DNA of 37,335 nucleotides from assembly GCA_013042825.1 (NCBI GenBank), contig JABDPL010000250.1, positions 1 through 37,335 of the forward strand, written 5' to 3'. The position numbers and the translations under genes are program-made. The notes below the pieces were generated by a model. That model had not been told where the DNA came from. It saw only the letters and a program-made list of their open reading frames with translations, and did not search any database. Positions 20,005-25,111 of the stretch are shown here, piece by piece (positions within the stretch are counted from its first letter, which is position 1; every line of letters begins with the position of its first letter). The DNA comes from Flavobacteriaceae bacterium (GTDB lineage: Bacteria > Bacteroidota > Bacteroidia > Flavobacteriales > Flavobacteriaceae).

Positions 20005-21075
20005 TTAAACCTTTGTCTGAAGAACGTCGAAAATGTTGCGAAGGTCTTTTTTATAGGGTAAATAATCAGCTCTTCCTTTTTTGAAAATATCATTACTGTT
20101 GCCTTGACCCTTTCGCAAAGCCTTCTGTTCCTCGTATGGCAGGGCATGAATCTCCTTGCAATTGGTGGAACAACAGCCATTCAATTCTGCCTTACAATCG
20201 TCGCATTGTATAAACAACAAATGACAGGCATCATTAGCACAGTTGGTATGTGTATCGCAGGGTTTGCCACATTGATGACATTGAGCGATTATCTCTTCGC
20301 CAATCTTTTCGGCTCGCCTGTCGTCAAATACAAAATTCTTGCCGACAAACTTGTTTTCAAGTTCCTGACTTTTTACCTGCCGGGCGTATTCGATAATTCC
20401 GCCTTCGAGTTGAAAGACATTCTTAAATCCCTTGTGCTTGAAATAAGCACTTGCCTTTTCGCATCGGATGCCTCCCGTACAGTACATCAACAGGTTTTTC
20501 TCTTCTTTATAGTCGCTTAGATCGCTCTCTATTATGGGTAGAGACTCCCTGAAGGTATCCACATCAGGGGTCACGGCGTTCTTAAAATGTCCGATCTCGC
20601 TCTCATAATGGTTACGCATATCGATGCAAACGGTGTTTTCATCATCCAGCAAGGCATTGAATTCTTCGGCGTTAAGATGCACACCCTTGTCGGTAACGTC
20701 GAAGGTCTTGTCATTCAGTCCGTCGGCAACGATCTTCTTTCTCACCTTGATCTTTAACTTCAGAAATGAATAATCATCCTGTTCAACCGCAATATTCAAC
20801 CGAACATTCTTTAAAAATGAAATACTGTCGAGCTGTGCTTTAAAGGAGTCGAAATTTTCCGCAGGAAGAGACAGTTGTGCATTTATACCTTCATCAGCAA
20901 CATAAATCCTGCCGAGGACATCCATTTTATCCCAGTTAAAGAACAACCGGTCTCTGAATTCTTGGGGGTCGTTGATATGTGCATATTTATAGAACGACAG
21001 CGTAAGGCGATCCTTGCCTGCTTTTTTTATAAGCTCCTTTCGTTCTTTAGCACTTAATTTGTTGTACAGTTGCAT
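20005..21075 (-). CDS. trhO: Rhodanese-family tRNA uridine(34) hydroxylase TrhO (YceA)
   Basis: ORF 356 aa; rhodanese loop MYCTGGIRCEKASAY; C-terminal Cys-rich CHQCGKPCDTHTNCANDACHLLFIQCDDCKAELNGCCSTNC. Confidence 0.93.
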   Translation of the reverse strand: MQLYNKLSAKERKELIKKAGKDRLTLSFYKYAHINDPQEFRDRLFFNWDKMDVLGRIYVADEGINAQLSLPAENFDSFKAQLDSISFLKNVRLNIAVEQDDYSFLKLKIKVRKKIVADGLNDKTFDVTDKGVHLNAEEFNALLDDENTVCIDMRNHYESEIGHFKNAVTPDVDTFRESLPIIESDLSDYKEEKNLLMYCTGGIRCEKASAYFKHKGFKNVFQLEGGIIEYARQVKSQELENKFVGKNFVFDDRRAEKIGEEIIAQCHQCGKPCDTHTNCANDACHLLFIQCDDCKAELNGCCSTNCKEIHALPYEEQKALRKGQGNSNDIFKKGRADYLPYKKDLRNIFDVLQTKV

Positions 21076-21140: not shown

Positions 21141-21172
21141 AAAAAAAGCACCTTCGGGCAAAAGGTGCTTTT
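21141..21172 (-). terminator. Intrinsic terminator of a minus-strand small transcript between trhO and recA
   Basis: Minus strand AAAAGCACCTT-TTGCCCG-AAGGTGCTTTTTTT: 11-bp stem plus T7. It lies in a divergent intergenic region where neither trhO nor recA needs a terminator. Confidence 0.85.
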
Positions 21173-21211
21173 ATCAGTCTTAAGGTGTAATAATTTTCAA
21201 TCTGACTTTTT

Positions 21212-21301
21212 TCATAAAACCCCCATGGCCTGGACAGCATACAAAATACCCCTTGCATCAAATGCCTTGGCAGCGGCAATTAAACAAAACAGATTTTTCA
21301 T
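21212..21301 (-). CDS. Candidate 29-aa small protein within the small transcript
   Basis: ATG AAA AAT CTG ... TTA TGA = MKNLFCLIAAAKAFDARGILYAVQAMGVL*. Too short for the ORF track; no homology available to me. Confidence 0.35.
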   Translation of the reverse strand: MKNLFCLIAAAKAFDARGILYAVQAMGVL

Positions 21302-21320
21302 AATATGTCTGAAAAATCTG
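21290..21320 (-). other. Perfect 11-bp RNA hairpin covering the candidate sORF start codon
   Basis: Minus strand CAGATTTTTCA-GACATATTA-TGAAAAATCTG; the ATG at 21301 straddles the loop/stem junction. Confidence 0.75.
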
Positions 21321-21381
21321 AATAAATCAGGATCAGTGAACCTATTCAGTTCCCTTTCATAGCAATTATTTCCCCGTTATT

Positions 21382-21413
21382 AGGAATAGATGCAAAAACT
21401 CTGAAAAGGTTGC
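21382..21413 (-). promoter_or_regulatory. Candidate ECF sigma promoter (copy 2) driving the small transcript
   Basis: Minus strand GCAACCTTTT-cagagttttt-GCATCTATTCCT; same spacing and 20 of 22 non-spacer positions identical to the element at 22529-22560. Confidence 0.65.
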
Positions 21414-22483: not shown

Positions 22484-22494
22484 AAGTCATAAAG

Positions 22495-22516
22495 TCCCGT
22501 TAAAACGGGATTTTTT
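22495..22516 (+). terminator. recA intrinsic terminator
   Basis: TCCCGT-TAAA-ACGGGA-TTTTTT just after the recA stop. Confidence 0.85.
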
Positions 22517-22528
22517 ATTTTTTGTCAC

Positions 22529-22560
22529 GCAACCTTTTGCAAACACAGGCATCTAATTCT
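22529..22560 (+). promoter_or_regulatory. Candidate ECF sigma promoter (copy 1) driving lipoprotein-sigma-barrel operon
   Basis: GCAACCTTTT-gcaaacacag-GCATCTAATTCT; lies between the recA terminator and the lipoprotein ATG (22591). Confidence 0.65.
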
Positions 22561-22590: not shown

Positions 22591-23016
22591 ATGAAAAGGC
22601 TGATCCTGTTTTTAGGAGTTATACTGACTTGGAGCTGCAGTACAGATGATGCGGTGGTTGATGAATTTTCATTTGAAATTCTTCCCATACGCACGGTAAT
22701 TGATATGCCCGAATCTGTCAATTATAATGACGTGTATACCATTCGATACACCTATTCACTTCCAAGTACATGTCATACCTTTAGTGATCTCTATTACCTG
22801 ACTGAAGGCCAATTTCGGACAGTGGCCGTAATCAGCAGGGTTTTAGAGGATACCGATACTGTTATATGTGAACCCCTCGAAGAGGAATTGGTGGAAGGAA
22901 CGTTCCAGTTCACCGTTCTGAATAATGCAGGCACTTACATATTCCGGTTTTGGCAAGGGGTTGATGAAGCTGGTGTAGATCAATATCTGGTATATGAGGT
23001 CCCCATAGAGCAATAA
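22591..23016 (+). CDS. Uncharacterised lipoprotein
   Basis: ORF 141 aa; lipobox GVILTWSC-STDD; no recognised domain. Confidence 0.8.
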   Translation: MKRLILFLGVILTWSCSTDDAVVDEFSFEILPIRTVIDMPESVNYNDVYTIRYTYSLPSTCHTFSDLYYLTEGQFRTVAVISRVLEDTDTVICEPLEEELVEGTFQFTVLNNAGTYIFRFWQGVDEAGVDQYLVYEVPIEQ

Positions 23017-23042
23017 TTGTATAATGATTAACTACAGTCTAT

Positions 23043-23585
23043 TTGAGTTTAAAATTACTCATAGAAAAATGCAAGAATCATGATACTAATGCGCAAAGCG
23101 AGTTATACAAATTATTTTCGCGGAAAATGTTTTCTCTTTGCCTGAAGTACTCACGTAATCGCACGGAAGCTGAGGATGTTCTGCAGGATTCCTTTTTGAC
23201 CATTTTTGAGAAAATCGGACAATACCAGGAAAAGGGCTCATTTGAAGGCTGGATGAAAAGGATCGTGATCAACACAGCTCTTCAGCGGTATCGTGGTCAA
23301 AGTGTTTTGAACATCGTAGATGAAGCAAAAATAGAAGATGTAAGCGTCAGTGTTGAAACCGACGACTTGAGTTTAGATTTCCTGCTGCGCTGCATACAAG
23401 AATTACCCGACAGGTATAGACTTGTATTCAATCTTTATGTGCTGGACGGCTATTCGCATAAACAAATAGCGACCATGCTCGATATAACAACGGGAACTAC
23501 CAAATCAAATCTGGCAAGAGCCCGAATGATATTGAAAGAAAAAATTGAAATCCATAAATCGCAAGTGAACTTGCAATCAATATAA
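23043..23585 (+). CDS. RNA polymerase sigma factor, ECF (sigma-70) family, TTG start
   Basis: ORF 180 aa; region 2 RNRTEAEDVLQDSFLTIFEKIGQYQEKGSFEGWMKRIVINTAL; region 4 ELPDRYRLVFNLYVLDGYSHKQIATMLDITTGTTKSNLARAR. Confidence 0.93.
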   Translation: MSLKLLIEKCKNHDTNAQSELYKLFSRKMFSLCLKYSRNRTEAEDVLQDSFLTIFEKIGQYQEKGSFEGWMKRIVINTALQRYRGQSVLNIVDEAKIEDVSVSVETDDLSLDFLLRCIQELPDRYRLVFNLYVLDGYSHKQIATMLDITTGTTKSNLARARMILKEKIEIHKSQVNLQSI

Positions 23586-25111
23586 TGAGCGAGAAACAAA
23601 ATATCGACAAGTTGTTTCGAGATAAACTCGATGACTTTGAAGCGACCCCCAGTTCCTCGGTTTGGGATAACATTTCTGGAAAACTTAATAAGGATTCCAG
23701 GGAAAGAAAAGTTATTCCCTTGTGGTTTAAAATCGCTGGAATTGCTGGAATCATTGTGATCCTGATCTCCCTGGGATTCCTGGTTTTAAATTCCAACAAT
23801 GATGAACAGCCACCACAGCCAGTGGTAGAAACCGAGTCTGGTGTCGAAAATGAAACCGATACGTCGAAAGATGTAAATGGTGAGGAAACATCGGTAAATT
23901 CGGAAATCTTAAAAGAAATAGCAGATTCTGAAGAGGAGAATTTACCTGAGAATGCACGCGCTGAACAAGATGCTATTAGCGAGAGCGTTCAGGGCCAGTC
24001 CCGTTCCGAAGAGAAAAGGGCGAATCAAATCATTACAGATAAGCCCAGCCTTATTAACGATGAGAATGCCACTGTTAGCGGGTCAGATAAAAACGATGCT
24101 CCGGACAGCTCAGCACTAAAGAAACGCTCTGATGCCGTGGTGAACAACGAAAATCAGCCAGTAAATGAAGATAGCTCCGTTAATCGCGATCAAAATATCG
24201 AGAAAAAACAGGCAGAGGCTATCCTTTCAGATGAAAAATCTGAAGAAACAGAACAATTAGCACAGATCGATGAGACTAAAACCGAAGATGTAAAAGTAAA
24301 TGAGGTAGAAAACGCAGAGGTTAAGGATGATTTGGAAGAAGCTATTGCCGAGCAACAGGAAGAGGAATCAGAATTGGATGAACCTGAAGAAAAAGGTGAC
24401 AAATGGCGAATCGCTCCGAATATTGCGCCGGTATATTTTGGTTCAATCGGCAAAGGTTCGGCCATTGATGATCAGTTTGTGAATAATTCTTTGTCAGGAG
24501 AAATCAATATGAGCTATGGTATTCTCGCTTCCTATGAAATCTCTGATAAATTAAGGGTCAGGTCGGGCATCAATCGCATGAGGCTGGGCAGTAAAACGAA
24601 TGATGTCATTGTATATAATAATATCGATCCTCAGGATGATGTGAAACCGTTGAGAAATGTTGTGTTGAATAATGCCAGTAGCGACCTGTTATTTCTTACG
24701 GCAAATGAATTGAATTTAGCTCAGGTTCCCGGTGTGGTTGCAGACAATATACAGTCGTCAATCGATCAGGAATTGGGCTTTATTGAAATTCCTCTGGAAT
24801 TGGAATACAAACTATCGGATAAAGGCTTTGATATAAGTGTTATTGGTGGAATGAGTGCATTATTTCTGAACGATAATGCCGTGTATTCAAGCCTTCAAGG
24901 CAACCGTACCGAATTAGGGAAAGCCACAAATGTGAATTCAACCAGTTTCAGTGCTAATCTGGGCCTTGGTTTTAACATTAAAGCTTCCGATCGTCTTGAT
25001 TTAAATCTGGAACCTGTTTTTAAATATCACCTGAATACCTTTAAGAATACTTCGGGTGATTTTAACCCTTTCAATCTCGGGATCTATACAGGCTTCAGCT
25101 TTAAGTTTTAG
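23585..25111 (+). CDS. Putative anti-sigma-like protein: short cytoplasmic N-terminus, one TM helix, ~200-aa acidic linker, outer-membrane beta-barrel-like C-terminus
   Basis: ORF 508 aa; TM VIPLWFKIAGIAGIIVILISLGFLVL; Glu/Asp/Ser-rich segment; porin-like C-terminus ...NLGIYTGFSFKF; TAATG overlap with the sigma gene stop. Confidence 0.8.
   Translation: MSEKQNIDKLFRDKLDDFEATPSSSVWDNISGKLNKDSRERKVIPLWFKIAGIAGIIVILISLGFLVLNSNNDEQPPQPVVETESGVENETDTSKDVNGEETSVNSEILKEIADSEEENLPENARAEQDAISESVQGQSRSEEKRANQIITDKPSLINDENATVSGSDKNDAPDSSALKKRSDAVVNNENQPVNEDSSVNRDQNIEKKQAEAILSDEKSEETEQLAQIDETKTEDVKVNEVENAEVKDDLEEAIAEQQEEESELDEPEEKGDKWRIAPNIAPVYFGSIGKGSAIDDQFVNNSLSGEINMSYGILASYEISDKLRVRSGINRMRLGSKTNDVIVYNNIDPQDDVKPLRNVVLNNASSDLLFLTANELNLAQVPGVVADNIQSSIDQELGFIEIPLELEYKLSDKGFDISVIGGMSALFLNDNAVYSSLQGNRTELGKATNVNSTSFSANLGLGFNIKASDRLDLNLEPVFKYHLNTFKNTSGDFNPFNLGIYTGFSFKF

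Follow-up and report, generated by a model that had tools for sequence, protein, structure and literature searches.

A probable Dma-type anti-sigma factor predicted to link an ECF sigma factor to the outer membrane, encoded in a conserved operon beside recA in Flavobacteriaceae

The last gene of a three-gene operon in a Flavobacteriaceae bacterium very probably encodes a Dma-type anti-sigma factor that spans both membranes and frees its co-encoded ECF sigma factor on an outer-membrane or surface cue, for the transcription of an envelope regulon. The operon was found on contig JABDPL010000250.1 of assembly GCA_013042825.1, positions 1–37,335 of which form the window, the whole stretch of DNA that was analysed. 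The source genome is 2.39 Mb in size and 73% complete. The gene order, the domain architecture, the constant tether length, the promoter and the promoter sites at envelope genes were all obtained by computation. The genes are arranged head to tail at 22591–25111 of the forward strand, 3' of recA, with the following features.

22494–22520, + strand: recA terminator-like hairpin just 5' of the operon promoter, read from the sequence
22527–22555, + strand: ECF-type operon promoter, ACGCAACCTTT-N12-CATCTA, conserved 5' of the lipoprotein gene
22591–23016, + strand: lipoprotein, 141 aa, beta-sandwich, with C-S-T-D-D after the lipobox
23043–23585, + strand: ECF sigma factor, 180 aa, TTG start (Pfam, NCBIfam)
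23043–23063, + strand: non-ATG sigma start inside the nucleotide-conserved element TTGAGTTTAAAATTACTCATA, with the inverted repeat TGAGT...ACTCA
23585–25111, + strand: third protein, assigned to the Dma type, 508 aa (Pfam, AlphaFold, Foldseek, 35-locus comparison)

The genes are tightly packed, and every detail listed for them in the preliminary description of this DNA was correct. The lipoprotein and sigma genes are separated by 26 nt, and the sigma stop codon overlaps the start of the third gene by 1 nt (TAATG); this overlap and the one conserved promoter 5' of the operon are consistent with a single transcript. Homologues of the third protein were detected in 128 of 151 Flavobacteriaceae genomes, an occurrence beyond chance. 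Conservation of the neighbourhood, earlier proposed as a check, was also found: the order recA, lipoprotein, ECF sigma factor, Dma, plsC-like gene (opposite strand) and trpS is kept, with the lipoprotein gene present at 32 of 35 loci, recA detected at at least 29 and trpS at 30, some of the recA and trpS misses being due to contig ends or the limits of the pattern used. The operon is thus conserved beside recA across the family, a setting that appears undescribed in the literature searched. One locus (L178:749-4818, genome G238) carries a tandem duplication, with the order lipoprotein, ECF, Dma-like, ECF and Dma-like, in which both sigma genes read from TTG.

The structure of the third protein was predicted with AlphaFold using 35 sequences, and the segments were assigned as follows.

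23585–23719, + strand: cytoplasmic N-terminal domain, residues 1–45, two helices, presumed to bind the sigma factor
23720–23791, + strand: inner-membrane TM helix, residues 46–69 (AlphaFold)
23792–24403, + strand: disordered acidic tether, residues 70–273 (AlphaFold, 35-locus comparison)
24404–25108, + strand: 8-stranded outer-membrane beta-barrel ending in -FKF (AlphaFold, Foldseek)

The two N-terminal helices were placed at residues 5–18 and 24–38, and residues D8, F11, P22, W27 and I30 of this domain are invariant. The tether was predicted with low confidence over most of residues 70–268, the pLDDT being below 50 nearly throughout residues 70–248, and Asp and Glu make up 30% of it in the window protein. 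The eight-stranded barrel comprises residues 274–507 with a pLDDT mostly above 90; OmpA, OmpW and NspA were among the best Foldseek matches to it, and Pfam gave a match to OMP_b-brl_2 (PF13568) with an E-value of 7e-5, under the curated cut-off. AlphaFold therefore supported all segments previously proposed (a cytoplasmic N-terminus, a TM helix, an acidic linker of about 200 residues and a barrel), including a C-terminus of the outer-membrane type. The earlier remark that no zinc-binding anti-sigma motif is visible also held, as the HxxxCxxC motif is absent and residues 1–45 of the window protein contain neither Cys nor His. No FecR domain was matched by Pfam, and no receptor gene lies within the operon.

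Across the 35 loci the mean pairwise identity was 59% for the N-terminal 45 residues, 51% for the TM helix and 54% for the barrel, compared to 19% for the tether. The tether contains no cysteine at any of these loci and has a length of 173–236 aa (median 201, sd 13.5). Its length is kept while its sequence is not, indicating selection on length and not on sequence; a constant length without a constant sequence is what should be expected of a spacer between two membranes.

The promoter of the operon had been described as autoregulatory in appearance, and its conservation argues that it is real: at all 32 loci checked, the lipoprotein gene is preceded by CGCAACCTTT and, after a spacer of 12 nt, by CATCTA or CATCTT, each element in this or a closely similar form. 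The exact pattern GCAACCTTT-N12-CATCT gave three sites in the source genome, including the operon promoter, a lower bound given that this genome is 73% complete. In 61 genomes 105 exact sites were found, compared to 1 for a reversed-pattern control. Among genomes with a Dma homologue 44 of 54 carried exact sites, as opposed to 0 of the 6 that lack one (Fisher p 1.6e-4), all of these being genomes of one family and hence not fully independent; about 10 family genomes that carry a Dma homologue lack the exact promoter. In a set of ten genomes, with six from genus group g128, a looser pattern without the leading GC was no commoner than its reversed control and was therefore dropped.

Of 54 exact sites away from recA, 41 were followed by an ATG at a distance of 7–54 nt (median 26), and the proteins encoded there had a hydrophobic N-terminus in 40 of the 41 cases; nearly all of them look exported. 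About 29 of these predicted targets were lipoproteins as identified by a regular expression, in many of which an acidic stretch follows the cysteine, while SusD-like proteins, a 28-aa membrane peptide and small barrels with GYRF at their end were among the others. LVIVD-repeat lipoproteins also recur among the promoter sites, and in two genomes of another family an LVIVD-like lipoprotein, recognised by eye, is encoded directly 3' of the ECF–Dma pair, which agrees with the regulon prediction. The third site of the source genome precedes the gene of a 178-aa barrel-like protein (L044:1561-2097). Exact promoter sites thus mostly precede lipoprotein and outer-membrane genes, which appears to be new as far as the literature was checked; the near-invariant operon promoter, its leftward copy with the short unit and the sigma-gene start described below appear to be new in the same sense. 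The 28-aa membrane peptide, of the MKILLIFSILIVINIILLVFSVNKKTDP type, is conserved 3' of the promoter in several genera (L049, L110 and L140; also L107).

The sigma factor carries the Pfam domains Sigma70_r2 and Sigma70_r4_2, and of the NCBIfam models only the general ECF family exceeded its cut-off. Its start codon is unusual. At the 35 loci (L003–L036 plus the window) it was TTG in 28, GTG in 6 and ATT in 1, and never ATG, while both neighbouring genes always start with ATG; at L014 an in-frame ATG lies three codons 5' of the start. The codons that follow, AGT TTA nnn CAA CTC ATA, show conservation at their synonymous sites, and of 119 columns post-start codons 1, 2 and 5 rank as the top three in this respect. 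The five pairs of TGAGT...ACTCA are kept at 32 of the 35 loci, with wobble changes only and no double-sided compensatory change, so that a hairpin at the sigma start is weakly supported. A weak sigma start together with a normal start for the inhibitor would favour an excess of inhibitor.

The lipobox and mature start of the lipoprotein read MKRLILFLGVILTWSC/STDD. The cysteine is followed by S-T-D-D in the window and by S-x-D-D or a similar sequence in most relatives in an alignment of 32, and positions +2 to +7 include two acidic residues or more in at least 28 of the 32 lipoproteins, some of the exceptions stemming from a mis-chosen cysteine. This start resembles the surface export signals SDDFE and SDDDD described for F. 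johnsoniae and B. fragilis (PMC5080379). AlphaFold gave a confident beta-sandwich (pLDDT 89.8) for which there was no close solved relative, the best PDB fold match having an E-value of 0.016. A relationship to NigD was considered and rejected, since there was no Pfam or NCBIfam match and no NigD among the 50 best PDB folds, all with E-values of 0.016 or above. The role of co-sensor proposed earlier is plausible from the presence of the lipoprotein in the operon and its export-signal-like start, and it may reasonably be guessed to be a surface-exposed partner of the barrel or to act on it as a feedback component.

A second copy of the promoter was located on the other side of recA, together with a short transcription unit.

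21388–21413, − strand: second promoter copy, exact pattern, directed leftward away from recA
21141–21381, − strand: short transcription unit of about 240 nt, candidate small RNA, with an intrinsic terminator at 21171–21141

The leftward promoter is present at the equivalent position in about 28 further genera, L032, L033 and L035 included. The unit consists of a conserved leader, which in most cases contains GGGAAA..TTTGCTATGAAA, and the intrinsic terminator. The peptide that it encodes is exactly 30 aa long in 15 genomes, with CKADGG as the usual end, and 28–29 aa long in three more; the consensus in the relatives (L077–L105) is MKFFKxTI..NALGVSV...NSNCKADGG, with the end K-x-DGG. Third codon positions vary most, and the ratio of nonsynonymous to synonymous differences is 0.25 of expectation, indicating purifying selection on the peptide. 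The long peptide is missing from the window and from its genus mate G151, both of which retain promoter, leader and terminator. Neither the RNA nor the peptide matched a family in Rfam, Pfam or NCBIfam, and for the leftward RNA and the operon Rfam gave sub-threshold noise only, with nothing at the gathering level.

When the whole leftward RNA was tested for pairing with the sigma start, the result did not convince (mean z of −0.9 relative to shuffles and +0.2 relative to random windows). The leader by itself showed complementarity to the sigma start with a Fisher p of 4e-4, compared to 0.21–0.94 for four control segments, which is a lead only, given that the species are related, that the segment was picked after the whole-RNA test and that the latter was unconvincing. 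To our knowledge, a small-RNA or peptide arm of an envelope sigma factor is familiar from Proteobacteria and not from Bacteroidota. It is a rather doubtful suggestion that the sigma-dependent leftward RNA, the peptide of about 30 aa or both regulate envelope mRNAs and feed back on the TTG-start element of the sigma gene. Beyond the leftward unit lies a gene for a YceA/TrhO-type rhodanese (20005–21075, − strand). In F. psychrophilum an ECF-type start, SM6, has been mapped upstream of a YceA gene (PMC9723704); it may or may not be the same as the leftward promoter of the window.

In the proposed mechanism the N-terminal helices of the third protein would hold the co-encoded ECF sigma factor at the inner membrane, the length-constrained disordered tether would cross the periplasm and the C-terminal barrel would be inserted in the outer membrane. 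A disturbed outer-membrane condition or barrel assembly, or a surface ligand acting on either the barrel or the operon lipoprotein, could be the trigger on which the grip on the sigma factor is lost, a release step that may need proteolysis. The freed sigma factor would read ACGCAACCTTT-N12-CATCTA promoters, at its own operon (positive autoregulation), at genes for surface lipoproteins and outer-membrane proteins, and at the short leftward transcript beside recA; the parts given here to the lipoprotein and the leftward RNA are putative. The preliminary description had suggested that one polypeptide links the cytoplasm to the outer membrane without an RseP/DegS-type relay. The link itself is the best reading of the AlphaFold and Foldseek results and of the 35 loci, and such a link has been published for Dma and for P. 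vulgatus; the absence of a relay could not be carried over, as the sequence is compatible with release by proteolysis.

A variant of this explanation, possible though short of an even chance, is that the barrel acts as a sentinel for the assembly of the outer membrane and not as a ligand receptor. A barrel that fails to be inserted by BAM would be degraded in the periplasm, a site-2-type protease would follow and the sigma factor would be freed, giving a one-chain equivalent of sigmaE with a proteolytic relay. In length, acidity and disorder the tether resembles a protease substrate, but at 19% identity it contains no conserved cleavage motif, and the operon has no protease gene. The toxin that induces a related pair in P. 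vulgatus also induces many genes that respond to the BamA inhibitor bacteroidetocin A (PMC9308784), which favours the variant.

Two further explanations would remove the barrel from signalling. It is highly improbable that residues 46–69 are part of a cleaved signal sequence and that the protein is an ordinary outer-membrane protein, with the sigma factor regulated by something else. The 45 residues before the TM helix show a conservation no lower than that of the barrel (59% vs 54%), which argues against a cleaved signal peptide, and their five invariant residues would be unexpected in a signal-peptide n-region. A hydrophobic segment of this kind could serve as a Sec signal, and barrel and sigma factor might be neighbours by chance, but ECF–Dma-like pairs adjoin in other families of the class as well. 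It is also improbable that the anti-sigma part works while barrel and tether are dispensable for signalling, the barrel being outer-membrane cargo that is merely co-translated, since fusion and tether length are kept at 35 of 35 family loci. In favour of this explanation, contig C75 of the same genome (L002:924-3390) encodes an ECF sigma factor together with an anti-sigma-like protein of 258 aa and, as a separate gene product, an exported-looking one of 367 aa, so that members of this anti-sigma class need not be fused. The N-terminal part of the 258-aa protein is weakly related to that of the window protein, and this may be an unfused version of the system.

The Dma proteins described so far come from a few gut Bacteroides, and the same design, read here as an anti-sigma factor spanning both membranes, is fixed beside recA in most of the Flavobacteriaceae sampled. 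The sharp promoter predicts targets and the tether length appears to be under selection, which makes the reporting of the outer-membrane state to RNA polymerase by one chain testable in flavobacteria. With the conserved small transcript and its peptide of about 30 aa comes a part that is new to the family databases searched.

Signals from the outer membrane also reach a cytoplasmic ECF sigma factor in FecA-FecR-FecI and in systems with a SusC-type receptor, an anti-sigma factor and an ECF sigma factor. These use a separate receptor, an anti-sigma factor and TonB, whereas the window system would use one chain with a small barrel. The sigmaE-RseA-DegS-RseP system of E. coli controls an outer-membrane protein and lipoprotein regulon and the small RNAs MicA and RybB, with RseA lacking an outer-membrane part; the window system shares with it an envelope sigma factor, such a regulon and possibly a sigma-dependent small RNA. 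The EcfO pair of B. fragilis was reportedly described by Ndamukong in 2013, and the Dma/Das systems of B. thetaiotaomicron are said to have been presented by Pardue et al. in PNAS in 2024.

In P. vulgatus the pair M0N98_03760-61 consists of an ECF sigma factor and a large anti-sigma factor with a predicted outer-membrane barrel, and is induced by an envelope-acting toxin, the sigma gene being up 33-fold (PMC9308784). Putative lipoproteins of the NigD type are among the induced genes, O-antigen lengthening is one output, and a similar EcfO pair of B. fragilis is cited in a passage of the same paper (PMC9308784). The window system has the same design of ECF sigma factor and barrel-bearing anti-sigma factor, while its lipoprotein, unlike those of P. 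vulgatus, falls in no Pfam or NCBIfam family. Members of the Dma family have an N-terminal anti-sigma domain, a TM helix, a long disordered tether, a C-terminal barrel and an adjoining ECF sigma factor (PMC13088901), and in Dma1/Das1 and Dma2/Das2 of B. thetaiotaomicron one chain joins sigma binding to the barrel (Pardue et al. 2026, PMC13088901). Dma2 sits in a three-gene operon whose genes rise upon dma2 deletion, and the output of the B. thetaiotaomicron Dma systems is vesiculation and PUL control (PMC13088901). The design is therefore already published as a class and is not a new kind of system. Membership of the third protein in the Dma class is supported by architecture and gene context, not by sequence; in other families of the class its family profile matched N-terminal parts and, in some cases, barrels. 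The domain order and the adjacent ECF sigma factor are common to the window protein and Dma1/Dma2, whereas the window system differs in the lipoprotein gene that precedes the sigma gene, the recA-side locus, the defined promoter with its predicted targets, and the second promoter with its RNA/peptide unit.
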